Part shown: positions 29,888 to 64,000 of the stretch, in pieces
Layout of the letters: every line of letters starts with the position of its first letter
Numbering within the stretch: the first letter of the stretch is position 1
Assembly (NCBI RefSeq): GCF_954871325.1
Contig: NC_088775.1
Location: 25,707,561 to 25,771,560 of the forward strand
Length of the DNA: 64,000 nucleotides
Direction of reading: 5' to 3'
From: Gordionus sp. m RMFG-2023
Lineage: Eukaryota > Nematomorpha > Gordioida > Chordodea > Parachordodidae
The notes under the pieces: generated by a model
The model's database searches: none
What the model was told of the DNA's origin: nothing
What the model saw: the letters and a program-made list of their open reading frames with translations, nothing else
Program-made: the position numbers and the translations under genes

Positions 29888-30140
29888 TAGTGTTGTTAAT
29901 TAGTCGATTTCTACCGACTAAGACTAATAGTCGTAGTTGAGGAAATCGACTAAAAACTTTAGCGACTAAATTAGTCGATTAGTCATGAAAACGACTAATT
30001 TAGTCGACTAAAACGACTAATCAGAGAAGATAAACAAAAAGAAGTAAAGTGAGAATTTGTCACTAAAATAACTATAAGAGTCATATATAAGTTATTTTTA
30101 ATATTTTTTGAATTTCTTTTTCTTTGAAGGAACAGGTTGT
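29888..30140 (+). repeat. Left terminal arm of copy 1
   Basis: 12-bp terminus, then about 120 bp of imperfect AGTCGACTAA/TTAGTCG iterations able to form many small hairpins, then a block matching 44400-44520 in inverse orientation (words GTAAAGTGAGAATTTGTCA and GGAACAGGTT). Confidence 0.75.
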
Positions 30141-30777
30141 TGTATGCAAATATATATTTAGATGAGCCCTTATTAATTGGGTGGTATTCAAATTTATATA
30201 GATGAACTTTCATGGATTTTGTTGTATGCAAATAAAAATAATTATGAATATGAATCTTTTTGATTATAGTTAAAAAGAAAAATATAATTTTTAATTACTT
30301 ATTTTTGTGATGAATTTTTACGAAATTATAATTTTTGGAATATTAAAAGTGGAATAAAATAAAAAGATTTGAAATAAAAGAAAATCATTCTTGAAGATAA
30401 AAAAAGAAAAAGGATATTAGAATTAATCTGGTTACGATCTCAGACTAGTGATTATACTGAGGGTAACATCAGTAAGATTACCAAATTCAATAAATTACAT
30501 ATATTGCATTATGTTCAGTCTCTCCCACTAGCCTCAGCAATGTATATCAATCCCATATTGGTACAGTGGTGCCTTATAGTGATTGATCCAGGCTTTAGAA
30601 GATCAAAGGTCAGTCTAATTATACATTGGAACTAGGTAAAAAAAAAATATATATAAATTTTTTGATAATTTCGGTTTTCTTATTGATGTTATATAAAATT
30701 TCGATTATTGTATTGGTTTTATTCGTATGTTTATATTTATTTAATTGTTTAAGATTAATTAAAATTATTTTAATCAA
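30141..30777 (+). other. Unique segment of copy 1 with an 83-codon frame lacking an early ATG
   Basis: 30414-30645 stands out by higher GC and complexity. One plus frame stays open for about 83 codons (ends HWN-stop near 30637; contains LPLASAMYINPILVQW and VIDPGFRRSKVSLII). In such AT-rich DNA a random frame of this length is unusual. No family recognised, no start codon near its beginning and no clear splice sites. Possibly captured host DNA. Confidence 0.35.
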
Positions 30778-31011
30778 GTGGTTATTGAGTACACTTTAAT
30801 GTATATTACGCAAATAAATTTATTAAGTTTAATACTTGAAAATATAAGTATAATTATATTTTTGTTGCTAATTTTAAGTTTCACGTTAGGTTTAATTATA
30901 GGAAGAAATACGACTTACGTTAAGATAGAGAGTAAAGAGTTTGAAAATATTAAGAATGTATTAAGAGAGGAAGATAAGAAAAGAAATATAAACAACTTCA
31001 TAAAATTATAA
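30778..31011 (+). CDS. Small hypothetical single-pass membrane protein
   Basis: An open frame of 77 codons (first codon GTG; an ATG lies at codon 8). It has one hydrophobic helix of about 25 residues (IIIFLLLILSFTLGLIIG) followed by a charged tail (YVKIESKEFENIKNVLREED). The hydrophobic-then-amphipathic layout looks less random than other short frames here. It sits inside copy 1, just before the satellite, and has no mirror copy in the other arm. No family recognised; it may still be chance in AT-rich DNA. Confidence 0.3.
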   Translation: MVIEYTLMYITQINLLSLILENISIIIFLLLILSFTLGLIIGRNTTYVKIESKEFENIKNVLREEDKKRNINNFIKL

Positions 31012-31275
31012 ATTGTTATTTCTGAACTTTTTAAAAATTATTTTAAAGCAAGGTATAAATATATATTGTAAACATGTTAAATCAAAATTTCAGTGAAGAT
31101 GTACCATAGAAAAGTGACAATTGTCATAATCGTCATTTTAAAAGTTTTTCGAATTTTTTTAACGCAAGTGGGTAAAAATATAGATTGTAAATGTTATATA
31201 AAATTTCAGTGAAGATGTACCATAGAAAAGTGACAATTGTCATAATCGTCATTTTAAAAGTTTTATGAAATAGAT
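31010..31275 (+). repeat. 119-bp satellite, about two units
   Basis: Two plus-orientation units with GAAGATGTACCATAGAAAAG and the palindrome TGACAATTGTCA at their core. Same family as 38570-39633, 50185-50830, 59560-60005 and 62045-64000. Confidence 0.85.
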
Positions 31276-32039
31276 GAAATGTTATAATATAAAGGCATTT
31301 TCAATCATGGAGAAAGAAAGAATGTGAAATGAAATTGTAAATAATTTTCATATGTTTTTCGTCTTGCCCCGCCCATATAAAAAAATTTTAACCACGCTGG
31401 CCTCATATGAAATTTAAATATGACTATTCTTTAAATTTTTTAAGTATCTAATAAAAAAAAGTTTCATCGCTACTACACCACTACAAAAAATCTCATTATA
31501 TAAAAAGCATAAAAGAATTTACGATTTAAATTATGATCAAAATATTTATGGTATTATAAAATAATATTTATTGATATTAATTATAGTTATGCAAAATTAA
31601 TAAAGAATTCATATTTTCTGTGCTCAAAGACGTTCCCATTTATTAATACCTTTCTCTCTGTAATAGAATTGCCAATATTTTTCTAATTTAATTTTAATTG
31701 TAATTACATCATTTTTTTGATGTTTCCACAATAGTAGGATATCGGTATACCTTTTCCTAAACTGAGATTTTATATAAATAAATTTATATTTAAAGAGAAA
31801 TGATGCTAAATTTAAATATATTGTTTATAAATTTAAAATAAACTAAGTAGCATGAATCCTTTCTAAATTATATTAATCAATCTCCTTTAAAATTTAAATG
31901 TTTTGTTATATAAATAGTGTACTCTACTCAGTCCTCTCCTCACTATTAACCTCATCTACCCTTATATTGTGAAATTAATATTGATAAAGTAAAAAAATTT
32001 GAAAAAAATTTAAAATAATAATATGGGAGAGAGAGAGAG
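31276..32039. other. AT-rich DNA, no gene seen
   Basis: No frame or repeat of note apart from a short GAGAGAGAGAG run near 32027. Confidence 0.5.
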
Positions 32040-32520
32040 TCGGGGGAGATATTGGTTATTTGGTATCCCGTCTTTACAGAGAATCTTTTATAGAGAATGC
32101 AAATATAGAGAAAACAATTGGAGAGAATGTCGTTTAATAATGAATGTCGTTTATAAAGAATATCGTTTATAGAGAATGATTTTATAGAGAATTTATTTTG
32201 TAGAGAAACTTTTAAAGAGAAAACAATTATGGAGAATGTCGTTTATAGAGAATTTCATTTATAGAGAATGATTTTGTAGAGAATCTCGTTTATAGAGAAA
32301 CTTTTTAAGAGAAAACAATTATAGAGAATGTCGTTTATATAGAATCTCATTTACAGAGAATTAGAGAATCTCTTTTATAGAGAATATTTTTGCAGAGAAT
32401 TGTTTTGCAGAGAATTGTTTTAGTGCGAATTATTTTATAGGGAAGGATTAATAATTTTATATTGAAGAATTTTACAGAGAATGATTTTATAGAAAATGAA
32501 TTATTTTAGAAATAAATTTT
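32040..32520 (+). repeat. TATAGAGAATG-type iterations, left block
   Basis: About two dozen imperfect repeats of a 12-20 base word around TATAGAGAATG. They are the inverse of the block at 37045-37470. The outer edges, CGTCTTTACAGAGAA here and TTCTCTATAAAGACG there, form an inverted pair, so the two blocks look like long terminal repeats of one element enclosing the MULE. Confidence 0.8.
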
Positions 32521-32597
32521 CTCAAATATGACCATTTACCGTCTAATTCTATTTTTTTGGCACTTATTAAACCAGATTTAATCTAATATAATTTATT

Positions 32598-32730
32598 AAA
32601 AATATATTTAAGGATATTTATTTGGAAAATCTACTCAATAAGAGGCTAAGGATATTTAATCTGGAAAATCTACTCAATAAGAGGCTAAGGATATTTAATC
32701 TGGAAAATCTACTCAATAAGAGGCTTTGAG
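32598..32730 (+). repeat. Three ~46-bp repeats (ACTCAATAAGAGGC), left
   Basis: Three copies of TCTACTCAATAAGAGGC separated by AAGGATATTTAATCTGGAAAA. Three inverted copies lie at 35020-35130, so these are inverted-repeat arms around the MULE transposase. Confidence 0.85.
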
Positions 32731-33116
32731 ATTCTTTTTAATTACAAATGTAGAATATTTTATTATTATATATATTTGATGCGAAATATCAAATACATTT
32801 AGAAAAGGAAAACATCAAAGTAGGCTTAAGAAAAATTTCCAAAAAAGCAATGTCCTACACCATCACTTGGAAAGCAATAAGATAAGTTGGAAAAATTAAG
32901 TTATTCACAAAAATAAATAATTACTAAGTTAGTTATAATCTTAATAACTTAACATTTTATTGCATAAATTTTTTATTCAAATTTTCAAATTTTTTCGATC
33001 AAATAAAATTAATTCAAAATAGTTCCATAATCCAAAATATATAATTTTTATTCATAACAAATGCATATATACATTGTATATAAATATAAATTTAATTATA
33101 TATTTAAAAATATAAT

Positions 33117-34553
33117 TTAAACATTTAAATTAATATTGTGAGACAATGCCCTTAGGTAATCTAACATGGGCCTTGAATAGTAATCTTCGACTATTCTATA
33201 TACCCGTTGAGCTCTTTCCCGATATTGTTTCTTTGAGAGTGGAGCCAATAGTCCCAAAGAATATTGCGCTAATTTATAGCAATTAAGGCTATCTTCATCT
33301 TTGAGAGCTAAAAATTAAATAAGATTTTTAAAATATTTTATATAATATATATTTCCAAATGGTTGGATGATGGGAACTTATATGGGAAGAAAAACTCCGG
33401 TGCCAACCTTCTACTGCATCGTTGGTATTTGGAGCTCGCATCAGAGTGGAATCATAGAAATTCCATAATGAAATACTAAACAATGGGGATCTCCTCTCCA
33501 TTGCTATCATTTTGCCTATCCATGTCTCCTCGAAGTATTCTATCAAAGGTTGGAGAATATCCCGCCTTTCTTGATAGAATTCGGAACCAACCAGCACCTC
33601 GAATCCATGGATTATGTCGTCCACTGGCACATATGCCAGTGATAATAACATCTTAATTTGTAAAGCAAAATTAGGCTCTGTCATATATGACATTCAAATT
33701 ATTGCATTTTTTTGAACGGGCGCCATATGCATTGAGACATGTGGAAGAAACATCCACGGTTATCAGCCAACGGAAAAGATTGGTTGAAAGCTGATATGGC
33801 TGCCAATTCAAAGTCTGTCATTATAGACCTAGGATCAAGATGAATTTCGAAATTTTTAATTTTTTCGAAAATATTTAAATAATCTTGATGGCGACGCGAC
33901 GCCATAAGGATATAAACGGCAGGAATAATCGTGTCGTATTTCATCCCATGGATGGTATAGATTTGTTGAAAGAGTGGAGGGCATGTTTTGAAGGTGCCAT
34001 CTGCGTACCATTTGTCGCACGTTGATAGGAACTGTACATTTTTCATTGTTGAAAATATTAGGCATCGATGATCATGGTGACCGCTATCATATAATAAAAA
34101 TTATTGCCCGTTATTATTTATTTGATATTCAATAGGGATTATTAGGTCAATTAAATTAACAGGAACAGTAGGCGCCCTTCCTACTAAGCGTCGTTTTCTT
34201 TGAATTGTTCTTTTGATTAAGGAACAACTTGGCATTCTCCCCATAGCTGCTGTAGATATATTGGTTGTTATATCCGCTATTATATTATTGGGTAGAGTTT
34301 GCGAGGTAGTTGCCTTTTCCTTTATTTGATTTATTTCTTTCCTTGCTTCAATTTCGGCAATGTCTGGAACATGATTATGCATTTGATTATGAAATATAAC
34401 TCCAGATTTTGTCCTCCTTCCATTGCACTCCTCCAAGTGGAATTTAACGCAACGCCAATAACTTGTATCGTTAATAAGCTTTTCTCGTTGAAATATAAAT
34501 GATTCAAAAATTAGTAATTGATTGTTTTGACTGCTTAAAATAAATTCAGCCAT
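33117..34553 (-). pseudogene. MULE transposase with FLYWCH-type zinc finger (nearly complete, broken)
   Basis: The ATG at 34553 opens a 150-codon frame with a FLYWCH-like finger (YWRCVKFHLEECNGRR then HNHVPD). One in-frame stop (34101) separates it from the catalytic part in the same frame: WYADGTFKTCPPLF (first Asp), GMKYDTIIPAVYILM, IMTDFELAAISAF (second Asp), GCFFHMSQ. After a frameshift at about 33695 it continues with LAYVPVDDII, FEETWIG, NDAVEGWHRSF (Glu block) and HPTIWKY. A short AT-rich gap of about 45 nt with an AG end but no GT donor (about 33299-33343) precedes the tail ALKDEDSLNCYKLAQYSLGL, ending LSHNINLNV at 33117. The domain order is that of animal MULE transposases. One stop and one shift suggest fairly recent loss of function. 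Confidence 0.88.
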
Positions 34554-35019
34554 TAATTTATAAGTTCTTTAAAAAAAATTTAGATTTCAAAATTAATGAC
34601 AATTTTTCTTAAATCCTATTATATATAAAATTAAACTTAAATAATTGTAAGTTTAAACTTTTATTATAATTTTTATTTATTTGTATTTTCATAGAGCAAA
34701 TCTCAATCAAATATAAAAATTTTTTTATTTCCATTTTATTTTTAGATTTTTTTTTCTCAATAAGAATTATATTTGTCCATATTTTCTATGTTTTATATTT
34801 TTACATAAAAAAAAACAAGACAGACGCTGTCATATAAATTCTCGGAACCCTTGAATAAAAAAAAAGGAAAAAATAATAAAAAAAAATATTCACGTTCCTG
34901 ATTTGTAATTGTTTATGAATAATTATGATAATATTTTTAAGTTTCCTGTTATTTTTTTTAAAATACGCTGAACAATTAGAAGTAGTAATGTTAAAATTAT
35001 GAAAATATTTCCTTCTTTA

Positions 35020-35130
35020 TCGCCTCTTATAGAGTAGATTTTCCAGATAAAATATCCTTAGCCTCTTATTGAGTAGATTTTCCAGATTAAATATCCTAAG
35101 CCTCTTATTGAGTAGATTTTCCAAATAAAT
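35020..35130 (-). repeat. Three ~46-bp repeats, right (inverted)
   Basis: Reverse-complement copies of the repeats at 32598-32730. Confidence 0.85.
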
Positions 35131-35152
35131 ATTCTTAAATATATTTTTAATA

Positions 35153-35305
35153 GAAAGAGCTCAACGGGTGTATAGAATAGTCGAAGATTACTATTCAAGG
35201 CCCATGTTAGATTACCTAAGGGCATTGTCTCACAATATTAATTTAAATGTTTAAATTATATTTTTAAATTATATAATTAAATTTATATACAATGTATATA
35301 TGCAT
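35153..35305 (+). pseudogene. Inverted copy of the MULE 3' coding end
   Basis: The plus strand encodes YRIVEDYYSRPMLDYLRALS-type residues, the same C-terminal end as 33117-33222 on the minus strand, and continues through the stop into the same 3' flank (to about 35305). So two 3' ends of the MULE point away from each other. Only the last part of the gene is duplicated. Confidence 0.8.
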
Positions 35306-35424
35306 TAGTTTCTATTAGTGCTTTGCTTTAACTAGTAGAGTAGCAATTTAAAAAAAAAACTATTAGCAACAAAGCCAGCCTTACGCCAATTTTTTTAGAA
35401 AATTTTGTCAATATTTAGTTGCTT

Positions 35425-35690
35425 TGTGCATTATTTTAATCTGCATGGCCTGGCCCCGATTTTTTAAAAATATATTATATATTTTTGCCTAGATAATAAT
35501 GGTGATTTAAAATATTTGGTTTTAAAATATATGGCCTGGCCCGGGTTTTTAAAAAAAAAGCTTTTTTGACCCGGCCCGTGTATTTAAAAAAATAAAATTT
35601 TAGGCTCGGCCCGGGTATATTTAAAAAAATTAAAATACAGCCCAGTCCGTGTATCCGGGCCGGATTTAAAGGGCCTGTAGGTCTCTGATT
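35425..35690. repeat. GGCCCGG-bearing iterations
   Basis: Four or five spaced copies of a GGCCTGGCCCGGG-like word separated by T/A runs in otherwise AT-rich DNA. They resemble the hairpin-forming subterminal iterations at other element ends in this window. The minus-strand frame here (35475-35735) follows from the repeat. Confidence 0.6.
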
Positions 35691-35799
35691 TATAGTACGC
35701 GTTTCTAATTTCCCTGATAAATCTGATTTTACCAAATCTATTCCGAAGAGAATCTACCCTGGGAATTTCATAAGATTTCGCCTAAATTTTTTGTATTTA

Positions 35800-36530
35800 A
35801 TAATTTATAATGAAAATCTATATAATTTAGTAAAAATTAAGGTAAGGGCGATAGTTTGATGGGTATTTTGTTCTATTTTTTGCATTTTAAATAATAAATT
35901 GAGCGCGTTTTATTAAATTTTAAATCTGATTTTGCCGAAAATGCATTCCAATATGTGTAGAATACCCACCCTATAAATTTCAGAAGATTTTATATTGAAC
36001 TTCTGAAGAAATTTTAATTTACATTAATCTGAAATTTATAAGTAATGTTAGTAGCCTAAAAATCAGCTAAACCTAATTTGGCTTAACCGAAAAATCGCCT
36101 AAAACTAATTAGACAAAATGTAGGGACTGGGAGCTAGGCTAATCGCCCGTCTGCGTTATGCAACACTAAGCCTAGCCTTTATTAAAATTATTTTATAAAT
36201 TTATTATGTAACGATATATGACGAGTGATTAACCGAGCTCCTTAGCCGATGCCTAATTTTTGACTATTCGTTTTCGCCTATTTTTATGTTAAGCCTAATT
36301 ATGCTTAGCCGATTTTTTGGCCTAAAAACTTGGCTAACCGTTTTGGAATTGCCTAAAATTAACCGATTGCGCAACATTAAGGGTGGTATGTTACACTTAT
36401 TAAGGTGCATTTCTTGCAAAATCAGATTTTTAAATTTAAAAAACGCACTCAATTAATGATTTTAAATGCAAATAACAACAAAAAATAAAACAATACCCAT
36501 CAAACTATCGCCTTACCAAAATTAAGTTAA
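35800..36530. repeat. Inverted repeat enclosing a small TAATGTT-ended element
   Basis: 35810-36010 and 36378-36525 are inverted relatives (shared GCGATAGTTTGATGGGTATT). Between them lies a ~335-bp piece (about 36043-36378) beginning TAATGTTAGTAG and ending CAACATTA, with AGCC/GGCT iterations inside, similar in style to hAT MITE ends. Confidence 0.6.
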
Positions 36531-37044
36531 GATCACTAGAGTACTGTCTAATATTCACATGATAGGAGGGAACACTCGGGGGTGGTTGGATCAATTTCTG
36601 TCGAAATCATCATAGGTCCGAAAATAATTGTATCTGAATTTACAAAATAAAAAATGATAGTTCAAACTCTTACCTAAAAATTATTCATCGACAAAATTTA
36701 AAATAATACATTTTTTTCTCTAAATTGATTTTAGTAAAATGAAAATTTCTTATTACAAGCCGTAAACTCCTTATCAGTTTAGAGAAAGATGAATCAAAAA
36801 GTTTAAAATGTTTTTTGCACTTGTTAAACATAACGGAATTCCAAATACAAACTAAAGTGTCCTTTTATTATTGGTAGATAGATCTGGTTATAAGCAAGTA
36901 TAATTATCATTAATATTTAAATTTCTTCGTATCATTAGGACTAATTATTTATTCAAACTTTTCTGTTGAAGGGGGGGGGGGGTGTTTTTTTCAAATCCCG
37001 CATAAAATTTTTGAACTTTATAATTGTCCCATATATAATATTTC
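36531..37044. other. AT-rich DNA with a poly-G run
   Basis: A run of about a dozen G at 36970-36982. No gene or element end seen. Confidence 0.5.
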
Positions 37045-37470
37045 TCTATAAAATCAAGATCTACAAATAATTCTCTACACAAAATAATTCTCTATAAAAG
37101 TAATTCTCTTTAAAATCATTCTCTTTGAAGTCATTCTCTATAAAGGACATTCTCTATAAAATAATTCTCTTAAAAATCATTCTCTATAAATTACATTCTC
37201 TATAAAACCATTCTCTATAAACGGCATTCTCTATAAATTACATTCTCTATAAATTACATTCTCTATAAAATCATTCTCTATAAATTAATTCTCTATAAAA
37301 ATTATTCTCAATATAAAACATTCTCTATAAAACATTCTCTATAAAACATTCTCTATAAACTACATTCTCTATAAAACAATTCTCGGTAATGCATTCTCTA
37401 TAATTGTTTTCTCTATAAATGTTTCTCTATAAAATGCATTCTCTATAATGGTTTCTCTATAAAGACGTTA
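37045..37470 (-). repeat. CATTCTCTATAAA-type iterations, right block
   Basis: More than twenty copies of ATTCTCTATAAA; reverse complement of the block at 32040-32520. See that entry for the pairing of their outer edges. Confidence 0.8.
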
Positions 37471-37661
37471 CAAAAAATTAATGGTGTAGATAGGCGCTAA
37501 CATTATTTAAAATAAGAAATAAAATATCAAAATGTGATGAATTATTAAATTTAGGCAAACAATAAACAAAACAATTTATAAAAATAAGGGAAAATATATG
37601 AAAGTTTCAGAATATACTATATTTTAAATTAAATTTTATTTTTTTAAAAAAAAAATATTAT

Positions 37662-37968
37662 ATTGCAATCTAGATTTTAAAAACATAATAATTGAAAAAG
37701 TAATCATTTTTGTAAAATTAAGGTATGGTATGGTTATTTATTGAATTAAGTCATAGATATCAATTTTCACGTGGAACCAGCTACCGGATTAAAAACAAAA
37801 AAATGAATTAGCAGTATTGCAATCTAGATTTTAAAAACATAATAATTGAAAAAGTAATCATTTTTGTAAAATTAAGGTATGGTATGGTTATTTATTGAAT
37901 TAAGTCATAGATATCAATTTTCACGTGGAACCAGCTACCGGAAAACAAAAAAATGAATTAGCAGTTGC
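37662..37968 (+). repeat. Direct tandem duplication of ~154 bp
   Basis: ATTGCAATCTAG starts at 37662 and again at 37816. The two copies are almost identical, including TCACGTGGAACCAGCTACCG, so the duplication is recent. Confidence 0.85.
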
Positions 37969-38569
37969 AATCATCAGATAAATCAGATGATCGATCATAA
38001 TCACGATCTAGTTTTGATTTTGAACATTCAATATCAATATTGAAAAAGATATTTTTGTATATTATTTTCTAAGTTTTCAAAGATGTTTTAATTATTTTAA
38101 ACATTTATAAGTTTTAAAAAAATCAGTTGATAATTAAAAAATATTTATATTGATTCCTTAAATAAATTGTAATTTGCACCCTTCTTTTGTGATATAATCT
38201 TGACGTGGATGTTATCTATTTCAAAAATTTCATTTATAATTGAATTATCTTTGCTTTTGGGAAAAAGGGTAAAATTAAATTTTTATCCACGTCGATGTTA
38301 GTTACATGCAAAAAAATCCAAAAAGTATTTTTAATCTAATTACCTTCTCTCAACAATAATATCCAAAACAGTAATCGGTACTTTAGTATTAAAAATGTTA
38401 AAAATGAAGCATATATTTTTTAATGTTTACCTAATAAATTTTAAATAACTAATAAGAGTTTAAATTTTTAAATCGGTCCGTTAGCACTTTTAAAATTAGA
38501 TAGAAGAGCTTAGGCTAAAACCCAGCTCGTTTCAGCAATTATTCTAAAGATCTTAAAATTAACGATTAT
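37969..38569. other. AT-rich DNA, no gene seen
   Basis: No coherent frame. A small ATCAGATGATCGATCAT patch near 37980 is palindromic. Confidence 0.45.
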
Positions 38570-39633
38570 ATTAATTGTCATATGGCACATCCATTTAAAT
38601 TTTAAATTAACATGTTTACAATTTATTTTACTCTGTTACTTCAAAAAAGTTTAAAAAAATAATGATTATGATAATTGTCACTTTTCAATTGTATGAAAAT
38701 TTTATTTAACATATATATACTATATATATTTTTACCTATTTGTTTTAAAAAAAAGTTCAAAAAGAATAATTATGACAATTGTCACTTATCTATGGTACAT
38801 CTTCACTGAAATTTCAATATAACATGTTTACAATTTATATTTTTACCCATTAACTTCAAAAAATTTTTAAAAAAAACTTAAGAATGACGATTATGACGTC
38901 ACTTTTCTAGAGTCTTCATTTAAATTTTAATATAGCATGTTTAAAATATATATTTTTAACCATTTGTTTCAAAAAAACTTAAGAATGACGATTATGACAA
39001 TTGTCACTTTTCTATGGTACATCTTCACTGAAATTTTAATTTAACATGTTTACGATATATATTTTTACCAATTTGCTTAAAAAAATTTCAAAAAAACTTA
39101 AAAATGACGATTATGACAATTGTCACTTTTCTATGGTACATCTTCACTGAAATTTTAATATAACATGTTTACAATATATATTTTTACCAATTTGCTTTAA
39201 AAATTTTCAAAAAACTTAAAAATGACGATTATGACAATTGTCACTTCTCTATGGTACATCTTCACTGAAATTTTAATATAGCATGTTTACAATAAATATT
39301 TTTACCAATTTGCTTCAAAAAATTTCAAAAAAACTTAAGAATGACGAATATGAAAATTGTCACTTTTCTATGGTACATCTTCATTGAAATTTTAATACAA
39401 CCTGTTAGAATATATATTTTTACCCATTTGCTTTAAAAAATTTCAAAAATGACGATTATGACAATTGTCACTTTTCTATGGTACATCTTCATTGAAATTT
39501 TAATTTAACATGTTTACAATATATATTTTTACCAATTTGCTTGAAAAAGTTTCAAAAAAACTTAAAAATGACTATTATGACATTGTCACTTTCCTATGGT
39601 ATATCTTCGCCTAAATTTTATTTTAACATGTTT
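38570..39633 (-). repeat. 119-bp satellite, about eight units, minus orientation
   Basis: Repeats of GTACATCTTCACTGAAATTT plus TTATGACAATTGTCAC, the inverse of the array at 31010. Units are unequal and diverged. The palindrome TGACAATTGTCA is kept in most. The array is cut at 39633 by a hAT terminus. Confidence 0.88.
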
Positions 39634-40802: not shown

Positions 40803-40909
40803 TTCTGTGAAGATGTACCATAGAAAAATGACAATTGTCATAATCATCATTTTAAAAGTTTTCTAATTTTTTTAACGCGAGTGGGTAAAAATATAGATTG
40901 TAAACATGT
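40803..40909 (+). repeat. Satellite piece between the two hAT copies
   Basis: One plus-orientation satellite unit, opposite to the array at 38570-39633, ending ATTGTAAACATGT where copy B starts. Confidence 0.85.
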
Positions 40910-41290
40910 CATTGGCGTACGTAGCGGGGGGGGGGCAGGGGGACAAATCCCTCCCCAAAGCCAAAAAATGCAGATGCCGGATATATTTTTCAAAAAAATT
41001 ATTGTCTATATATTAATATTATTTTTATTATCTTTATTCATATATCTTTCATTCAAATATATATTTAATTACATTTATTTACCACAATCATTTACGAAGT
41101 TATTTTATCAATTAATTTCAATTTCAAGTTTTCCTTAATATTTATCTCCTATTTTCAAATTTTTACCGGCAAAATATTTATCTACCATTTTTTTCTAGTC
41201 AAATAATAATTATGGACATAAGAAATTTTTTTAAAAACACTAATGATGATAAAGATTCTAGTCATCCTCATCTTATAAAAAAGCAAAAAG

Positions 41291-41332
41291 GTATGAGTAA
41301 TTTTATAACATATTTTTATTATTTTCTTTAAG
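41291..41332 (+). other. 42-nt intron in hAT transposase
   Basis: AAAAG|GTATGAG ... TTTAAG|TAATT. Splicing joins KQK to VIKTP in frame (phase 1). Confidence 0.65.
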
Positions 41333-53269: not shown

Positions 53270-53799
53270 AAAATATCATAAACACCTAAAATAAAATATT
53301 ACATCTAAATAATTTTTTATTTATACTTTCAGAATCTGCAAAAATTATTGTAATATTTTAAAATAATTTGAAAAATGAGTCAATCAGCTATTTAAAAAAT
53401 AAAAAAATAACTCCACCTGAAAAAATGTTTGTTTTCTTTTTCATATATCTCATTCAAAATAAAAGATATTTAAATTTTTAGATAAATTTTATATTTTAGT
53501 TATATATTTATAATTATAACAATTAAAAAAAAAAATTCTTAAAAAGTTACGAATTTACTCTGTTGGGGTCTCACACACCCCAATCAGTCACAAAATGCTT
53601 ATATCTTAAAAACTACTCAACCGAAATGTATGAAATTTGGAATATAGATTCTAAGATATATTTGATGAAGCTACTGAAAAATCCAGATAATAATATTTAA
53701 CTTTTATGCAATATCATTTCTAGCATGCCTGGGGTTTCATATTAGAAATATTTTTCAAAATTTTGTTGATAACTGCAACAAATCTTATACAATATCAAA

Positions 53800-54770
53800 A
53801 TATGCAACCCTAGATGAAATGCTTCCAGCATTTCATGGTAAATGCCCATTTAGGCAATACATAACCAATAAGCCATCAAAATATGGCATAAAATTATATT
53901 CCTTGGTGGATTCCAAAACTTACTATACACTTAATTTAGAAATATATACTTGAAATCAACAAGAGGGGCCTATAAAATAAGTAATAAACTAGCAGATGTG
54001 GTTAATAGATTAATTCTTCCAATATCTGGTTCAATTCGCAATGTAACCATGGATAATTGGTTTACAAGTTATGATACTGCATTAAGTTTATTGCATACAC
54101 ACAAATTAACAATAGTGGGCACATTAAGGAAAAATAAACCACAAATTCCTAATGATTTTATAATGACAAAGGGAAGGAAAATTTATAATAGTATATTTGG
54201 ATTTCACAGAGACATCACATTATTATCATATATCCCCTAAAAAAAGGAAAAATGTGATAATGCTTTCAACATTGCAAATAAAAATGTTGATGATAATAAC
54301 CTTTTCAAACCTGATATTTTATCATTTTATAATATGACTAAAGGGGGGGGGGGTCGATATGGTTGACCATATGATTGAAAATTTTTCAATATCAAGAAAA
54401 TCTTATTGTTGGCCTTTAACAATTTTTTATACACTTCTAAATATAACAACAATTAATTCTCACATTATATACACAGCAAATACAAAAATATCAATTAGTA
54501 GAAGTAATTTCATAAAAAAATTAGCTATGGAATTTATTACTCCACATTTAGAATTAAGAAAAGTCTTAGATTGCCACGACCCCTGAAAGATTCTATTTAC
54601 AATATATTAGGCCAACCAAATAAAAATATTAAGCCTTCAATAGGAAGGTGTAGTGTTTGTCCTAAAAAAGGGATAAAAAAACAAAATATTTTTATCAAAT
54701 ATGTAAAATAAATTTATGTTTAGAACACATGAATGCTTTATGTAATAAATGTTTTACATGTCAAAATTAA
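53800..54770 (+). pseudogene. piggyBac transposase, right copy, C-terminal two thirds (broken)
   Basis: Runs opposite to the left copy: LDEMLPAFHGKCPFRQYITN, NKPSKYGIKLYSLVDSK, VTMDNWFTSYDTALSLL, GTLRKNKPQIPNDF, then the Asp region and cysteine-rich tail to the stop 54770. An 11-G run (54343-54353), against 10 in the left copy, shifts the frame before VDMVDH. Upstream of about 53870 this copy has sequence the left one lacks (the KCPFRQYI region) and the reverse is true for the left N-terminus, so the copies complement each other but neither is whole. Confidence 0.85.
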
Positions 54771-55155
54771 CATATTTCAATGTTCTATATTTTTTTTATG
54801 TTTGAATGAATCAGTGTGATTTTTTTTTTATATTGAAGAATAAAGATCCATGTTATGAATTATCATGATTATATGTATATATAAGTTAATTTTTTATTTA
54901 ATATTTTAAATTTAGAAAAAGTTAGCTTTTTTTAGAAAATTTTGGGACAAATTATATTACTCCTCATCATTTTTAATTTAAACTTAAAAAATAAAAATAA
55001 ATAATTATTTTATCAAGTTTAAGGTTAGTTCTATCTTATATCCAAATATTAAATCTAAATAATGAATATAAATGGAGATATATGCATTTGAAATTGGGGT
55101 CTATTTAAACCCCACCCGAGTATTAACTTGATTTTTTCACCGGAGTATTGAAGGG

Positions 55156-55985
55156 TTAAATGATTAAGATTTTAGAATTATTTATAAATATATCTTAATA
55201 AATATGTGTATTTTATATGTAAAATAGCGCGTTTTAAGCCTATTTTTAGAAACCGTCAGGCCATTAATTTAAACAGAAAATAATGACTAGTCCACAGATT
55301 ACTATAAGTTATGTCTATTTGTACCATCTATGAGAAAAATGGCTCACGTAATATTATTCTCAATAAAATAGTGAATTAACCGCTTTAAAAATCTGCTCAA
55401 ATCGCGCGATTTAACAACACTTTAGGGAATTAACGCCTGAAAATAAGTATAGCGCTCTACTTTAAAATATTGGTTCAAAGTTAATCCCAGTATCAATATT
55501 TTTTTTGATATTAATATCTTCCGTTTTTTACTTTTCTTTTCATAATAGTATAATTTCCAATCCCCCTCTAAAACGGCCTATTTAGCCGCTCGAGGCTGAG
55601 CCGTTTCTTACGACTTAAAACTCGACTCGATTCACGGCTAAGCCTAAGCCGATAACACTACATCTATGAAAAAAATGGTTCGCCTAAATTACTAAATTAT
55701 ATAAATAAAAATTTATATTTTATATTTAAAAAAAAGCATCGGCGAAAACTTATATAAAATATATTGTTTTATTAGTTTTAAAACTCTTTATGGAAGTGAC
55801 GGATATATAATATTAGAAAAGGATTTTTATTTTATTTGGAGTGGTGCCAGCTAGACGGCAAATTTGTTGAGATTTTTTCTTTCTTCATTGTTATTGTTTG
55901 TTAGGGAGAAACATATTAATCATTTTTTTAAACTTTCCCCCTTACAATTAAAAATTTTTTTAAATTATTTTTGGGGCTTGCCATT
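55156..55985. other. Palindrome arm and AT-rich DNA
   Basis: 55156-55500 mirrors 58560-58832 (shared GAAACCGTC, TAAAATACACAT inverse words, GGCGTTAATTC inverse) and includes a TTAACAACACTTTA terminus near 55415. From 55560 on, GCCTATTTAGCCGCTCGAGG-type iterations suggest another transposon end. No gene. Confidence 0.6.
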
Positions 55986-56779
55986 AGGTCCGTGAAGTTG
56001 GCCCCACAATTTTTGATTTTCAATGGTTTATCAGTTGGTGTGATTAGTACCCGATTTGTACCGTTTTCAGTTCGATTTGTACCATCACCGTTTTTGAGAT
56101 ATTCAAAGAACAAAATGGGGGGCCAACTTCTGACAGCCCCCAACTTTTGACCTTAAAAATAAAAAGTGAACAGGTCGATAGAGAATGATTTGTACCGTTT
56201 TCAGTTCGATTTGTACCATCACCGTTTTCCAGCTATTGACCGTTGAAAATATGGCGCCAAAAATTTAAGTTTTTAACGTACAACGGTAGAGAATTTTTTT
56301 TTCTTCCTAATGATGCCTCAAATTAAGCTTTATCTTCATTATTTATTTCGGAAATCAAATTTTAAACCTTACATTATAGCGTGAAGTTAGCCCACACACC
56401 CCCCCCCCCGATATTCAAAATTTGAGATTTTTCAAATTTTTAAAACGGGATTGATTTGTACCCGATTTGTACCGTTTCAAACTCGATTTGTACTATTACC
56501 GTTTTCCAGCTATTGACCGTTAAAGATATGGCGCCAAAAATAAAAAACAGTCAACATTTATTTTTTTTAAATTTTTTAACGTACAACGGTAGAGAATTTT
56601 TTTTCTCTTTCTAATGATGCCTCAAATTAAGCTTTATCTTCATTATTTATTTCGGAAATCAAATTTTAAACTTTATATTATAGCGTGAAGTTAGCCCCCC
56701 CCCCACGATATTCAAAATTTGAAATTTTTAAAATGGGATTGATTTGTACCAAAAATTGTGGGGCCAACTTCACGGACCT
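55986..56779. mobile_element. MULE-type MITE, 794 bp, 9-bp target duplication
   Basis: Inverted termini AGGTCCGTGAAGTTGGCC (55986) and its complement ending at 56779; the inverted similarity continues through CCCACAATTTTTG. Both sides are bordered by the direct repeat CTTGCCATT (55977-55985 and 56780-56788). Nine-base duplications are the mark of Mutator-like elements. The interior has three iterations of GATTTGTACCGTTT and CATCACCGTTTT words and no coding capacity. Confidence 0.85.
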
Positions 56780-57183
56780 CTTGCCATTGCCAAATGAAAT
56801 CTTAAATTTTTTTATTTTATTCATTTTTTGTTTTTAAAATTAAAATTTATTATTATATTAATAAAAGTTGTCCAACTTAATCATTCATGGAATACAAATA
56901 TCATGAATTATAAATTTTGGACATAATTTTTATATGTATATATCAGTGTTGTTAAAATAGTACAGTAGCGGTAGCTTTAGCTGACTACTTTTTTTAGAAA
57001 ATAGCGATAGCGGTAGCTCGCTACTAATTTAGAAAGTAGCGAAGTAGCGAATTTTACATAATAAATACATATAAAAATTATTAAAATATATTTTTTATTA
57101 AATCTAAAATTATAATCCTTTTATTTAATTTAATTTTGAAATTTATATTTAAAAATATACATTATAAATCTAGTTATTAAAAA

Positions 57184-57363
57184 TGTGTGAGATTGTTGAA
57201 GATAGCGAAATTTCTTTGGAAAATGAGAAAAATATAGATTATCCTTTCCCAAAATTCAAAAAATACTTTAATCTTGAAGAAAAAATTACTAGTATCAATG
57301 CAAGAAAATTTTGCCAACCACTGGTAGAGTCTAGGCTAAAAGGCATTGAGAAAAGGACATAAC
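57184..57363 (+). pseudogene. Possible hAT transposase N-terminal fragment
   Basis: A 59-codon frame from ATG 57184 (MCEIVEDSEISLENE) with YPFPKFKKYFNLEEKI and NARKFCQPLVESRLKGIEK. KYF/L-E-K and a Cys position loosely recall the N-terminal region of hAT transposases, but a full BED finger is not present. It sits in the right place, after the 5' terminus and before the C-terminal fragment. Confidence 0.4.
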
Positions 57364-57896
57364 TATTTTTATTTTCTATTATACAATTATATAAAATGAA
57401 TGATTTATTGCTTGATTAGCCATAATTTAAATTGGCTTAATTTACAACACAATCTATAATATTAATATATAGTATTAATATAAAATTCAAAATTAATATA
57501 ATATTAATTACATTGTGTATAATAATTATATTTTTAAAATCTTTATTTACCATAATTTAATGCTATTTTAATATTTTTTTTATAAATGAATTTAAATCTC
57601 AGATAAATTTAAATTTTGAAATAAAAAGGTATTCTTCTTATTTTATAATTAATACAATCGCTTTATATAAATTAGATTTCCAGATCTGTATGATGATGAT
57701 AATGTAATAGCTGGTATCATTCATCCTAGTTTCAAGTTAAATTAGCCATACATTAATTTGACTGAATATAAAGGGCAACTTGATAGGCCGATGGTAACGT
57801 TAAAAATGTCATGCCTAACCACGATACTAATACTATAGCTAGATCGAAACTGCGGCCTTCCATAGACGATTTTTTTGAAATAATAATATTATTGAA

Positions 57897-58112
57897 CCTT
57901 TAGATGCTTTTTTTAAATCTAAAAATACTCATTTAAATATCTTTGATGATTTTTTTCATATAAAAAGTGTGTTTATTAAATTTAATACTGCGTAGTCCTC
58001 AGTGCTGAACATATTATTTAGTATAGCAATGCTTATACTTTCTGAACGTCGCTTTAGACTTGGGGATTTCAGTACCGAAATGCTATTATTATTAAAGTGC
58101 AATATTGAATAA
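57897..58112 (+). pseudogene. hAT transposase C-terminal dimerisation fragment
   Basis: PLDAFFKSKN, FIKFNTA with one stop, LFSIAMLILSERRFRLGDFS and EMLLLLKCNIE-stop. This is the standard C-terminal end of hAT transposases (relatives read LPSSAPVERLFS-AG-ILS-R-RLS-E-LLFLK-N). The SSA/ERLFS part is altered. A diverged relative lies at 58880-59300. Confidence 0.8.
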
Positions 58113-58567
58113 ATTATATATATATGTAACAAATTATAGTCATGTTTTTATACCATATTTTATTTGTGGAAATAAAGTTATGTAAAAATCATTTTAAAAA
58201 AATATCAAAATAGCGTAAAAAGTAGCTAATAGCGCGCTACTCATTAATAAACGATAGCGATAACGATAGCGCGCTATTTTTTTATAAAATAGATAGCGAT
58301 AGCGCGCTACTTTTAAAAGTAGCGTTTAACAACACTGGTATATATATATTGTTAAATATAAATTTCTGTATGTTAATAAATATCGTATTTTTAAGCATAG
58401 TGTTGTTTCAGGCTGTTGTTTTTTTATGAATACTGGAGAACATTAGTGGTTTAATAATATTTGACTTTAAATTTGTACTAAAATAGTTTTTGATATTAAG
58501 ATTTAGGATTTTGAACACTTAAGAAAAATTACACATTAAAATTTATACTGGGATTAACTTTGAACTA

Positions 58568-59470
58568 ATGTTGTTAAAGTAGAGCGCTATACTTATTTTC
58601 AGGCGTTAATTCACTATTTTATTGAGAAGAATATTACGAGAGCCATTTTTCTCATAGATGGTATAAAGGTTTAGACATCACTTATCGTAATCTGAGGATT
58701 AGTCATTATTTTTCTGTCTAAATTATTGACCGACGGTTTCTAAATAGGCTTAAAACGAGCTATTTTACATATAAAATACACATTTATTAAGATATATTTA
58801 TAAATAATTCTAAAATCTTAATCATTTAAATTAATATTAAGAATCTACATAATCTAGTTACTAAAATAATTTAAAATATCAATGATAGATATATAATGAA
58901 GATACATTTGTAGATAATATATATACAAAGTTATTTCCTTGTTATAATGATATGTAATTCCTTCCTGATATCGCATAAATTTTAGTCTCGATAAAAAAAT
59001 CTATTAATGAGAGTGAATCTAAGGACATTTTAGTAGGCTAATGATAAAGCTAAATAATACAATACCTCACCAGGATACCTTAGCTACCTAGTATAGAATA
59101 TTCTTTTAGAAAAAAATATACTACTGAAAATACTCTAGCCGCTATATTATAAATCTAAAAAATTTAAATTAATATTTTTAATGATTTTTCTATAAAAATT
59201 TTATTATATTAAATTAAATAAGAAAGTTTATTTATTCGGATTATACTTTCTCATCGATGCTCTAAAGTTGGGGATGACACTATATTATTATTAAGATACA
59301 ATAAAAAAAGATTTATATTTAAAATTTTAATCATATTTATTTTATTTGTGGACATAGAGATATTTAAAAAAAATTTCGAAGTATTGTAAAAAGTGGTTAA
59401 TAAGACGCTACTTTATTGAAAAATAGCGGAAACTCTTATAAAAACGGGCTTAGAAATACTAATTATAAAT
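58568..59470 (+). pseudogene. Older relative of the same hAT (C-terminal relic)
   Basis: Starts with AATGTTGTTAAAGTAGAGCGC (58568). At 59105-59300 the DNA aligns with 57897-58100 (ATACTTTCTCATCGATGCTC versus ATACTTTCTGAACGTCGCTT), i.e. the same C-terminal end with many stops. After it AATAGCGGAAAC words resemble the subterminal iterations. A mirror fragment lies at 51100-51363 in the other palindrome arm. Confidence 0.6.
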
Positions 59471-59559
59471 AAAATCAGTTTTCCAAAAATAAACAAGATT
59501 TATATGAGATAGTTTGCCACCAATAATCTTTTTCTCGGGTTCTTCTACGCTAAAATAAT

Positions 59560-60005
59560 AATATAACATGTTTTACAAATAAGATTTTTACTATTTGATT
59601 AAATAGAGTTTAAAAATATTTATGACTTTTATCACTTTTCTATGGCTTTTATTGAAATTTTAATTAACTAGTTTATAATTTATATTTTAACCATTTTTTT
59701 CAAAATATTCCAAAAAAATTATCAACATGACTATTTTAATTTTTTCAAGGTTTTTCATCACTGAAAAATTGATTTAACATGTTTACAATATGTATTTTTA
59801 TCTATCTGCTTCAATTAAATTGAAAAAGATTCAAAAATGACGATTATGACAATTGTCAATTTCCTATGGTACATGATATTTAAATTTAACATGTTTACAA
59901 AATATATTTTTACCCATTTGCCTTAAAAAAATTCAAAAAAGTTTAAAAATGACGATTATGACAATTGTCACTTTCCTATAGTACATTTTCAATGAAATTT
60001 TAATA
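59560..60005 (-). repeat. 119-bp satellite, right arm of copy 2
   Basis: Two clear minus-orientation units with TTATGACAATTGTCA (near 59840 and 59960), preceded by older, diverged units mirroring 50830-50990. Confidence 0.8.
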
Positions 60006-60216
60006 TAACATGACATCCAAGCTTCAAGTCTGAGTCGAAAAAAACAACCAAACTACAAGTCTGAGTCGAAAAAAACGACTCATATTTTGGGTCGAAGACG
60101 TTTTTCGGCTTGGATTAGAATCGAGGTCGAAAAAACGACCCATATTTTAGGTCGAGGTCGAAAAAAACGTCGAACTTTGAGTCGGGGTCGCGACTCGCGG
60201 CGTTTTAACAACACTA

Positions 60217-60626
60217 GTTGGAAGAGAGCCATGACCAAAGCTCTATCAAAATGCATCTCATCACTTCTTGATCAACAGCACATGCATTTCTCTCTTCACT
60301 ATTTCATACCAAATCCTTCAACCCCCACTAAGTTCAATCAAAAAATCTGATCCAGCACATTAAAAATGCCACAAACAATCCTCTTTCCTTTACCTCCTCG
60401 CCAAAATTGCTTCCCTAACAAAAAAACACGAATTTAAATCCAATATTGATAAATAAATGCAAGCTTAAAATTTAAAAAACATTAATAATCTTAATATCGA
60501 ATCTGCTCTACGAATCTTATTCTCTTATCTCATTACTTGCTGACGTAATTGAAATTTCTACATGTAATAGCAGTTGACCTTATATCTATGTTATAATTAT
60601 TTATGATTCTATAAAATGTTTTATAT
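60217..60626. other. Right flank arm of the palindrome
   Basis: Reverse complement of 49744-50079 to 60559 (GGCTCTCTTCCAAC in the reverse reading, GATCCAGCACATT, CTCCTCGCCAAAATTGC). Less AT-rich than typical. The open frame at 60087-60350 crosses the element border and is not a gene. Confidence 0.6.
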
Positions 60627-61095: not shown

Positions 61096-61374
61096 CCTGT
61101 CCTAATCCCGATTGTATAGAATTTGATATGGATGAACATTGGTTTTGTTCTCCAAAGCTTTCTGATTCAGAAATATTTATTATACCAATGGGTTGAATAT
61201 CTATTTAGCAAATTAAATATTATTATAAAATTTATAGCATGGCCAAAGGGTAATAGGTTAGTCAGTAAAATATATGTCAAAATCATCAGATCCTATAATT
61301 ATCATATCAGAATTTTTGTATAATATAATAAATTAAAGCTTGATTGTTGTTAGTGTTGTTAATCGGCTTAGCCG

Positions 61375-61930
61375 AGTCGGCTCGAACAGAGCTCACCCAA
61401 ATTTTGGGTCGTTTTTTTCGACTCCAACTCAAAGTTTTGGTCGTTTTTTACGACTTCGACCAGAGTTCAAGCCGAAAAAAACGACTTCGACCCAAAAGAT
61501 GGGTCGTTTTTTTCGACTCCGACCCAAGTCCAAGCCGAAAAAAACGACCTCGACCCAAAATATGGGTCGTTTTTTACGACTCCGACTCAAAATTTGGGTC
61601 GTATTTTTCGACTCAAACTTGAAATTTGGGTCGTATTTTTCGACTTAAACTTGAAGTTTGGGTCATATTTTTCGACTCAAACTTGAAGTTTGGGTCGTAT
61701 TTTTCGACTAAAACTTGAAGTTTGGGTCGTATTTTTTGACTCAAACTTGAAGTTTGGATCGTATTTTTCGACTCCAACTCAAAGTTTGGGTCGTTTTTCT
61801 GACTCAGACTCAAACATCGGGTCGTTTTATTCAATCCGACCCAAAATATGGATCTTTTTTTTTAAAGACGACTTAAAGTTAGGGTTGCTTATTTTCACCC
61901 CTAACCCAATTATCTAGATCATTTTTTTCG
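61375..61930 (+). repeat. Subterminal hairpin iterations
   Basis: About 13 imperfect units of 35-45 bp built as GGGTCG-T-run-CGACTC plus a spacer AAACTTGAAGTTT or similar. Each unit can fold as a small stem with a T-rich loop. Four overlapping open frames here, on both strands, are by-products of the repeat. Confidence 0.85.
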
Positions 61931-62044
61931 ACCAAAAGTCAAATAACATTTAGTATATATTAATATTATAGCTGGGAAAGTTACTTAAAGCTTCTTTAAA
62001 TTATAATGCTCTGATTAATATTCATCATAGTTATATTTTAAAAT

Positions 62045-64000
62045 TTTTAAGTGATGTACCATAGAAAAGTGCCATTTGTCATGATAATTATTTTTGAACT
62101 TTTTTAAATGAAATAGATAAAAACATATATTGTAGACATGTTAGATCAAAATTTCAGTGATGATGTACCATAAATAAGTGGTAATTGTCATAATCGCTAT
62201 TTTTGAACTTTTTTGAGTTTTTTTAAAGCAAATTGCTAAAAATATATATTCTAAACATGTTAAATTAAAAATTCAGTGAGGATGTATCATAGATAGGTAA
62301 CAATTGTCATAATCGCTATTTTTGAACTTTTTTCAATTTTTTTAAAGGAAATAGCAAAAAATATATATTCTAACCATGTTAAATTAAAAATTCAGTGAGG
62401 ATGTATCATAGATATGTGACAATTGTCATAATCGCTATTTTTGAACTTTTTCAAATTTTTTTAAAGGAAACATCTTAAAATATATATTCTAAACATGTTA
62501 AATTTAAAATTCAGTGAGGATGTATCATAGATATGTGACAATTGTCATAATCGCTATTTTTGAACCTTTTCAAATTTTTTTAAAGGAAACATCTTAAAAT
62601 ATATATTCTAAACATGTTAAATTTAAAATTCAGTGAGGATGTATCATATATAGGTGACAATTGTCATAATCGCTATTTTTGAACTTTTTCAAATTTTTTT
62701 AAAGGAAATATCTAAAAATATATATTCTAAACATGTTAAATTAAAATTTCAGTGAGGATGTATCATAGATAGGTGACAATTGTCATAATCGCTATTTTTT
62801 AACTTTTTCAAATTTTTTTAAAGGAAATAGCTAAAAATTTATATTCTAAACATGTTAAATTAAAATTTCAGTGAGGATGTATCATAGATAGGTGACAATT
62901 GTCATAATCGCTATTTTTAAACTTTTTCAAATTTTTTTAAAGGAAATATCTAAAAATATATATTCTAAACATGTTAAATTAAAAATTCAGTGAGGATGTA
63001 TCATAGATAGGTGACAATTGTCATAATCGCTATTTTTGAACTTTTTCAAATTTTTTTAAAGGAAATAGCTAAAAATATATATTGTAAAGATGTTAAAATA
63101 AAATTTAAGTGATGTACCATAGAAAAGTGACAATTGTCATAATCGCTATTTTTGAACTTTTTTCAATTATTTTAAAGGAAATAGCAAAAAATATATAATC
63201 TAAAAATGTTAAATTAAAAATTCAGTGAGGATGTATCATAGATATGTGACAATTGTCATAATCGCTATTTTTGAACTTTTTCAAATTTTTTTAAAGGAAA
63301 CATCTTAAAATATATATTCTAAACATATTAAATTTAAAATTCAGTGAGGATGTATCATATATAGGTGACAATTGTCATAATCGCTATTTTTGAACTTTTT
63401 CAAATTTTTTTAAAGGAAATATCTAAAAATATATATTCTAAATATGTTAAATTAAAAATTCAGTGAGGATGTATCATAGATAGGTGACAATTGTCATAAT
63501 CGCTATTTTTGAACTTTTTCAAATTTTTTTAAAGGAAATAGCTAAAAATTTATATTCTAAACATGTTAAATTAAAATTTCAGTGAGGATGTATCATAGAT
63601 AGGTGACAATTGTTATAATCGCTATTTTTGAACTTTTTCAAATTTTTTTAAAGGAAATATCTAAAAATATATATTCTAAACATGTTAAATTTAAAATTCA
63701 GTGAGGATGTATCATATATAGGTGACAATTGTCATAATCGCTATTTTTGAAATTTTTGAAATTTTTTTAAAGGAAATATCTAAAAATATATATTCTAAAC
63801 ATCTTAAATTAAAAATTCAGTGAGGATGTATCATAGATAGGTGACAATTGTCAAAATCGCTATTTTTGAACTTTTTCAAATATTTTTAAAGGAAATAGCT
63901 AAAAATATATATTCTAAACATGTTAAATTAAAATTTCAGTGAGGATGTATCATAGATAGGTGACAATTGTCATAATCGCTATTTTTGAACTTTTTTTAAA
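62045..64000 (+). repeat. 119-bp satellite array, about 16 units
   Basis: Regular 119-bp spacing (for example the palindrome at 62416, 62535, 62654, 62773 and 62892). Consensus words: GTGACAATTGTCATAATCGC, TATTTTTGAACTTTTTCAAA, ATATATATTCTAAACATGTT, TTCAGTGAGGATGTATCATA. Nearly every unit keeps TGACAATTGTCA; single exceptions near 63605 and 63845 have one changed base. The first unit or two (62045-62200) are more diverged and closer to the versions in copies 1 and 2, so the inner units look homogenised. Confidence 0.93.

Follow-up and report, generated by a model that had tools for sequence, protein, structure and literature searches.

Three elements with a common tip

We analysed a 64,000-nucleotide stretch of the genome of the horsehair worm Gordionus sp. 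m RMFG-2023 (phylum Nematomorpha, taxid 3053472), referred to below as the window (C1:25707561-25771560). The genome comprises 287 Mb in 267 contigs, of which C1 has 93,749,283 bases; C1, C2 and C3 denote contigs, and L001-L064 are individual loci that were read elsewhere in the genome. The window holds three large elements, at 29888-44725 (copy 1), 50080-60216 (copy 2) and from 61351 to the end (copy 3), that share a terminus and a 119-bp satellite. We consider it very probable that copy 3, and copy 2 in its origin, belong to a cut-and-paste transposon family of the hAT type that has two asymmetric ends, A and B, and long inverted arms.

A window search located the tip TAGTGTTGTTAA exactly at 29888, 50080 and 61351 on the forward strand and at 44714 and 60205 on the reverse strand, while CAGTGTTGTTAA was present at 56944 (forward) and 58326 (reverse). 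When up to one mismatch was allowed, the window gave 10 matches to the terminus, where shuffled sequence gave 0.68 on average, and the preliminary description was therefore right that the three elements have it in common. Genome-wide we observed 13,755 exact sites of TAGTGTTGTTAA, compared with 97 for the reversed control. Since most of the sampled sites (beyond copy 3, and at L001-L008) belonged to other, often short elements with different interiors, the 12-bp tip alone marks a broad clan and not one family.

Copy 3 (61351-64000 in the window, forward strand) represents the left portion of a palindromic element of 4812 bp, which extends to 66162 in the window's numbering. A perfect 8-bp duplication, ATTGTTGT, was seen on both sides of 61351-66162. 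The end inside the window is of type A and the end beyond it of type B. The tip is followed by subterminal iterations at 61363-61970 (forward strand), made of 32-bp units of the form GGGTCG-T-run-CGACTC, and then by the 119-bp satellite of the left arm at 62066-64000 (forward strand), with a mirror array beyond the window. When the arms were cut at a centre of our own choosing, they were identical at 1970 of 2000 aligned bases, with 812 gap columns.

End A is defined by TAGTGTTGTTAATCGGCTTAGCC, at the start of copy 3, and end B by TAGTGTTGTTAAAACGCCGCGA, at its finish. The genome contains 166 exact copies of the 43-base A end and 151 of the 36-base B end (controls 0), and 521 A-like ends with up to three mismatches in 28 bases (control 0). 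The lists of ends are complete for C1 and C2, with the exception of the exact 28-base A list, which stops at C2:36.4 Mb, and cover part of C3. On C1 and C2, 57 of the 93 exact A ends faced a B end within 15 kb, and the other neighbour arrangements were same-strand 0, outward 4, A-A 0 and B-B 1. With the 28-base list, 68 of 116 A ends on these contigs had a B partner within 20 kb; 29 of these pairs were below 5.4 kb in size, 29 measured 5.4-8.7 kb and 10 measured 10-15.6 kb.

The flanks were read for 16 A/B pairs, a sample that is not random: it consists of L035-L037 (about 6.3 kb), L038+L039 (14.6 kb), nine pairs of at least 8.6 kb, L030 and L032 from satellite matches, and copy 3. Thirteen pairs had perfect 8-bp duplications, two matched at 7 of 8 bases and one had none. 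Two further satellite loci, L029 and L031, showed an A end and no second end in the piece examined. The 8-bp target-site duplication of hAT elements was thus found in 13 of 16 A/B pairs and also in copy 1, where a perfect direct GATTAGAC, reported in the preliminary description, lies at 29880-29887 and 44726-44733. 

Copy 2 had been taken as an element comparable to copies 1 and 3, and this did not hold. Its two ends are both of type B and face each other, and there is no direct duplication; the flanks are CTTCCAAC and GTTGGAAG, i.e. inverted. The flank at 49736-50079 (forward strand) is repeated in inverted form at 60217-60567, with 326 of 342 aligned bases identical, and the inverted repeat extends about 340-350 bp past both presumed termini. 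Since both ends are of type B and the flanks are inverted, we read copy 2, from its sequence, as a probable rearranged inverted duplication and not a simple element. Its satellite arrays are found at 50190-50963 (forward strand) and about 59530-60012 (reverse strand).

Copy 1 is of the hAT type; its ends are TAGTGTTGTTAA, and its subterminal iterations read TTAGTCGACTAA. Its right-end type had 258 matches genome-wide with up to one mismatch (control 0). About two units of the satellite lie at 31011-31285 (forward strand), and an array lies at 38541-39633 (reverse strand). The window satellite search thus located the 119-bp satellite in all three copies, as described earlier. The proposed order of terminus, iterations and satellite stood only in part, since the satellite is present in copy 1 but begins 1.1 kb from the left end instead of adjoining the iterations. 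With the same tip and satellite and different subterminal iterations, copy 1 is very probably a sister family, a view we hold as part of the same overall explanation.

Satellite arms, core and transposase

Seven A/B elements were read whole (copy 3, L030, L032, L035, L036, L037 and L038+L039). In all of these the satellite ran in the forward orientation from the left and in the reverse orientation toward the right, with one stray match in the opposite orientation in L030. Because the satellite lies inside them in inverted orientation, the A/B elements are foldback-like, and the long inverted arms with internal tandem repeats that distinguish foldbacks were observed. An inverted self-match of at least 1.5 kb was 93.9-97.4% identical in four of five elements and was not found in L037. 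Arm matches between elements were 90.8-95.7% identical in 10 pairs (arm homogenisation comparison, five elements).

The region between the arms differed among the copies. Three copies of 1.2-4.8 kb (copy 3, L030 and L032) were without a core and had no transposase part. The copies of about 6.3 kb (L035-L037) had a central core and retained the transposase 3' end only. The minus strand of the L035 core encodes the hAT C-terminal dimerisation region (PF05699, 2.1e-15), and Hermes was its best solved relative. Genome-wide, 40 near-full copies of the core were scored; 26 of these could be tested with the lists of ends, and for 22 of the 26 an A or B end faced the core at no more than 9 kb.

A 14.6-kb element at C1:22151084-22165682 (L038+L039) had an A and a B end, CTTTCCTG on both sides, satellite in forward and then reverse orientation, and hAT open reading frames (ORFs) on the minus strand between the arms. 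Its transposase matched PF05699 at 1.6e-23 and PF14372 at 2.4e-5, the latter below the curated cut-off; only Dimer_Tnp_hAT passed the curated Pfam cut-off in the transposase pieces. Hermes was again the best solved relative. The motifs TTDIWT, THDNGSN and SERVFS aligned with TIDLWT, VTDRGAN and SERTFS of Hermes. The Hermes motifs hold the catalytic D, D and E. A transposase with the dimerisation region and the catalytic motifs was therefore present in the 14.6-kb copy, and was not found in the window copies. The 3' end of the transposase is repeated, in inverted form, in the other arm of this element. The best protein relatives (40-47% identity) came from Gordionus sp. m RMFG-2023, and a relative of about 50% identity from the same genome matched zf-BED at 7.8e-6.

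At least 22 loci had transposase identity of 95% or more genome-wide, and 15 of the 22 were without a stop in both matched stretches. In all 15 the two stretches were 55 nt apart, and this gap is probably an intron. We evaluated linkage to the ends with 50 matches on C1 and C2, leaving out second stretches at the same loci and other contigs. Among the matches listed, 9 of 11 loci of at least 95% identity had a facing A/B end within 12 kb, and five had both ends; these five elements measured 13.2-15.6 kb and their gene points toward the A end. At 72-79% identity, three of the four matches listed had a facing end, and a single 8.6-kb element with two copies accounted for two of the three. At 53% identity or less, only 2 of the 35 listed had a facing A/B end and none had both. 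Since facing ends were common near the loci of at least 95% identity and nearly absent from the distant relatives, we conclude that this transposase belongs to the A/B family. The search for an autonomous-type copy coding a hAT transposase, suggested in the preliminary description, thus succeeded in the long A/B-ended copies, the 14.6-kb one having a broken frame. Together with the 8-bp duplications, this agrees with its assignment of copies 1 and 3 to the hAT type. In a search with PF14372, no checked match on C1 and C2 lay within 15 kb of a listed A/B end; the family's own domain scores below the cut-off of this model. L058, a relative of about 50% identity, had no TAGTGTTGTTAA end in 4.2 kb and only two mismatched look-alikes.

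Two other hAT elements of the window were considered as the source of the transposase. The element at 56944-58337 (1394 bp, with CAGTGTTGTTAA ends and GTATATAT on both sides) had been named as a candidate, and its 12-bp tip is indeed similar. However, it is non-coding (no ORF of at least 70 aa) and its subterminal motif is TAGCG and not CGACT, while the long A/B copies hold a transposase of their own family; we see practically no chance that it supplies the transposase. This copy is refuted as a coding source, a refutation that covers this copy alone, longer relatives being outside the search.

The other candidate lies in copy 1, where a hAT of another family (40910-44332, forward strand; DUF4371 and Dimer_Tnp_hAT) is inserted in the satellite. 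It had been stated that no window copy carries a clear transposase of its own. Copy 1 does hold a hAT transposase gene, but the gene belongs to this nested, different hAT and not to its host. The nested element has its own ends, of the CAGGCGCGTACGCAG type with the left one mutated, and none of the 38 C1 and C2 matches checked, among those listed, was within 15 kb of a listed A/B end; we therefore rejected it as the source of the family. The same element was also found in L033, with ACCCCCCT on both sides, and in L034. An inverted 3' fragment of it lies at 39634-40806 (reverse strand) with satellite on its flanks. We also noted that the element and the fragment (39634-44332) have one 8-bp flank in common, which reads AAACATGT in the orientation of each and lies at opposite ends of the two; it looks as though an inverted duplication within the satellite had split one insertion.

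The orientation of the core relative to the A end varied among the 26 tested cores (14 same, 7 inverted, 1 ambiguous and 4 unlinked). The ambiguous core, C3:2950982, lies between two A ends and its orientation is undefined. In L036 the core is inverted relative to the A end as compared with L035. This element follows the left arm of the 14.6-kb element to core base 152 and then continues with the core in right-arm orientation, as an internal deletion would leave it. Inversion of the core by recombination between the arms was suspected first and then rejected, as the structure of L036 favours internal deletion from a long element with the 3' end in both arms. The 152-base remnant was seen in five of the seven inverted cores. 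The other two (C1:64464588-64465638 and C1:28236739-28237789) are without it and are unexplained by this class of deletion.

We also compared the family with other superfamilies. The P superfamily, with Galileo, is marked by 7-bp duplications and a THAP transposase, while we observed 8-bp duplications and Dimer_Tnp_hAT. Mutator and MULE elements make duplications of about 9 bp, and Helitron and Helentron carriers make no target-site duplication at all; the 8-bp duplications fit neither. The MULE of copy 1 lies nested inside that copy. Its transposase ORFs, at 33328-34568 (reverse strand), matched Pfam FLYWCH (2.9e-10) and MULE (2.5e-14), and the ORF at 33328-33693 in this region was without a Pfam match.

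Subterminal sites and the place of the satellite

It had been proposed that shape rather than sequence is under constraint in the subterminal part. For the hairpin test, 90 units of 32 bases from eleven arms gave 50 distinct units, which are related to each other and were chosen by likeness to the hairpin consensus. Over six stem pairs, 93.3% of the cells were paired as compared with 93.7% in shuffles (477 of 500 shuffles reached the observed value), and compensatory double changes numbered 0 in the 50 units against a shuffle mean of 1.0. When we examined the motif CGACT/AGTCG, its density was 25-80 per kb in the subterminal regions of the three copies, as compared with 0.5 per kb in the 198 kb that follow copy 3. 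Two miniature inverted-repeat transposable elements (MITEs) lacked the motif, and so did the 56944 element, where TAGCG takes its place. The iterations do differ in sequence between copies, as first described, but copy 1 and the A/B elements share this core.

That the hairpin shape is itself the selected feature would be consistent with the inverted subterminal motifs that follow the tip in copies 1-3 and in the 56944 element. The pairing fraction and the lack of compensatory changes are against it, as is the core common to copy 1 and the A/B ends; moreover, the palindromic subterminal sites of Hermes are described as binding two BED domains by sequence (PMC10368747). We therefore consider selection on shape improbable, and the claim was not supported. 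A shared binding sequence, here a putative site, would explain copies 1-3 better than a shared shape.

In the genome we counted 15,323 exact matches to a 17-base piece of the satellite (control 0), or about 1.8 Mb at 119 bp per unit. In a 264-kb stretch, all 47 satellite matches lay inside the three elements. Among the clusters listed on C1 and C2, 16 of 16 of the copy-3 type had a facing exact A/B end within 6 kb, as did 9 of 19 of the copy-2 type; three of the ten unlinked copy-2-type clusters (window copy 2, L030 and L032) showed mismatched ends on reading. The satellite is thus a regular internal part of the A/B-ended family, in line with the earlier view that it is a component of the element.

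An unselected set was formed from the first 18 satellite clusters on C1 (the first 7.1 Mb, grouped by script). Four had an exact known end. Of the 14 others every third was read, five in all, and ends were sought within 1.4 kb on one side. L063 showed a mismatched A end and the other four showed no known end in this interval; in L062 a MITE-like tip with two mismatches lay 1.4 kb from the array. The preliminary description had said that most arrays lying away from the termini would speak against it, and this was partly the case: five clusters had a recognised end, four sampled ones had none and nine were unread. Seven of the 18 clusters had arrays in forward and then reverse order and none the opposite (6 of 19 without the joining of arrays 10 kb apart). 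L062 and L064 shared an array variant (GAACCACAGGAAAGTGACAATTATCATAATCG) and a similar start, and may represent another family of elements. Satellite copies probably also exist outside the recognised members of the family.

One explanation of these arrays is that the satellite is independent and that hAT elements preferentially insert into it. Arrays without recognised ends do exist, and the nested DUF4371 hAT did insert into the satellite of copy 1. However, the 8-bp duplications lie outside the A and B ends while the satellite lies inside in mirror-image order, and for this reason target preference is largely refuted for the A/B family. The 47 matches inside the three elements and the facing ends at all 16 copy-3-type clusters point the same way, and overall we judge this explanation to be highly unlikely.

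A different possibility is that the satellite is an old arm sequence, common to several foldback families (the A/B family, the copy-1 type and others with decayed or unknown ends), that predates the A/B family. Copy 1 has the same satellite with different subterminal iterations, the forward-then-reverse order was found in clusters most of which have no recognised end, and another array variant is shared by L062 and L064. The unlinked arrays may instead be decayed A/B copies, as the mismatched A end of L063 illustrates, and ends were sought on one side only, within 1.4 kb, in five of the 14 unlinked clusters. In our estimation the arguments for and against this possibility are evenly balanced. 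The satellite has the appearance of an arm sequence used more widely among foldbacks, the A/B family being one of its carriers.

The window also holds other repeats. Nested inside copy 2, at 51358-55161, is an element that has long inverted repeats and ORFs of the DDE_Tnp_1_7 (piggyBac) type. Part of its transposase recurs in a long inverted duplication, a second instance in which a palindrome has taken in coding sequence. At 4055-9012 there is an unrelated satellite palindrome, with 292-bp and 147-bp units in inverted arms that are 90% identical over 1.79 kb; no duplication was seen at its edges. Four tandem copies of a 2.07-kb unit, 98-99% identical, occupy 9804-18073; the unit had no Rfam match, and the first unit had no frame over 110 aa. 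An Rfam scan of the whole window at gathering thresholds gave no match. Hairworm mitochondrial genes are described as holding long coding palindromes (PMC10380579; PMC6649704). Whether these and the nuclear palindromes have a common cause is raised here as a question only.

Proposed mechanism and known systems

In the explanation that we propose, each arm of an A/B element is built of the TAGTGTTGTTAA tip, CGACY-rich subterminal iterations and the 119-bp satellite array, in this order, and the long copies (13.2-15.6 kb where both ends are known) carry the family's own hAT transposase between the arms. Internal deletion of long copies would give the copies of about 6 kb that retain the transposase 3' end only, and further shortening would leave copies that are arms with little between them. 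The transposase of the long copies may recognise the tip and the subterminal sites and move the short copies in trans, by cut-and-paste as expected of a hAT transposase. The arms may lengthen and shrink by unequal exchange and by arm-to-arm repair.

Several observations weigh against this explanation. Transposition is deduced from sequence alone, and movement was not seen. In the 14.6-kb copy the coding sequence of the transposase is distributed over several frames. Of an N-terminal finger-like stretch in the family transposase we detected the end only, and the stop-free count covers the two matched stretches and not the first and last exons. There are also 36 of 93 exact A ends on C1 and C2 without an exact B partner within 15 kb, the A/B pair without a duplication, and an A-A pair on C3 (C3:2948506-2954479), in which two inward-facing A ends at a distance of 6 kb enclose a core. 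No coding copy with the copy-1 end type turned up, although no search was aimed at one. Finally, four of the five sampled arrays without a known end showed none within 1.4 kb on the side examined.

A more speculative extension, which we regard as doubtful, is that the satellite arms are a working cis part of the element. They would form an expanded, mirror-symmetric docking platform that raises transposase capture, and the satellite would have grown and spread with the transposon. The palindrome would also bring the 3' exon of the transposase into each of the two arms, and copies shortened by deletion would therefore remain long hairpins. As one genome holds a series from transposase-bearing copies to nearly bare palindromes, the origin of satellite arms, and any help they give to the transposase, is directly testable. 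The family also represents a route for making and spreading a dispersed satellite in the animal phylum Nematomorpha.

The closest description is that of Tetris, a foldback transposon of Drosophila virilis (Dias et al. 2014; PMC4079207). Tetris resembles the A/B family in its long inverted arms, each with an outer flank, a tandem-repeat block of variable size and an inner part, in the occurrence of its satellite repeats outside the element, and in its non-coding copies. Its tandem-repeat unit is about 220 bp as compared with 119 bp here (PMC4079207). Tetris is described from three structurally complete copies with 8-10-bp duplications, with the transposase not found and no definite superfamily, and most foldbacks are said there to belong to Mutator (PMC4079207). 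The A/B family, in contrast, has 68 A/B pairs on C1 and C2, 8-bp duplications and long copies with a hAT transposase; the two are likened by their described architecture.

Galileo is similar in its foldback-like arms with internal tandem repeats and in having coding beside non-coding copies (PMC3688188; PMC4168063). Its arms are described as having multiple binding sites (PMC3688188), and a Galileo arm also took in the final piece of the transposase ORF, as in the A/B family (PMC4168063). It differs by its P-superfamily transposase with a THAP domain and 7-bp duplications, where the A/B family has a hAT transposase and 8 bp. Direct tandem repeats are reported in a single Galileo copy in D. willistoni (PMC4168063), while they were seen in every A/B element read whole.

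Hermes and other hAT elements share with the A/B family a transposase with a C-terminal dimerisation region (PDB 4d1q, 8edg). The subterminal repeats of Hermes are likewise in quasi-palindromic order, and it is described as binding palindromic subterminal sites via paired BED domains; satellite arms do not feature in the accessible part of that report (PMC10368747). Transposon-spread units similar to those seen here are described with different carriers, namely Xmix/Xstir of Xenopus and other MITE-borne satellites (PMC9659126) and the Helentron-borne satellites of oyster (PMC7492417).

Among the titles and abstract openings listed in a literature search, with most subscription papers outside its reach, there was no description of the A/B family or of nuclear repeats in Nematomorpha, and a search for the tip sequence gave one unrelated match. 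Together, these comparisons indicate that satellite-armed foldbacks are already known, and that a hAT one with transposase-bearing copies is new.

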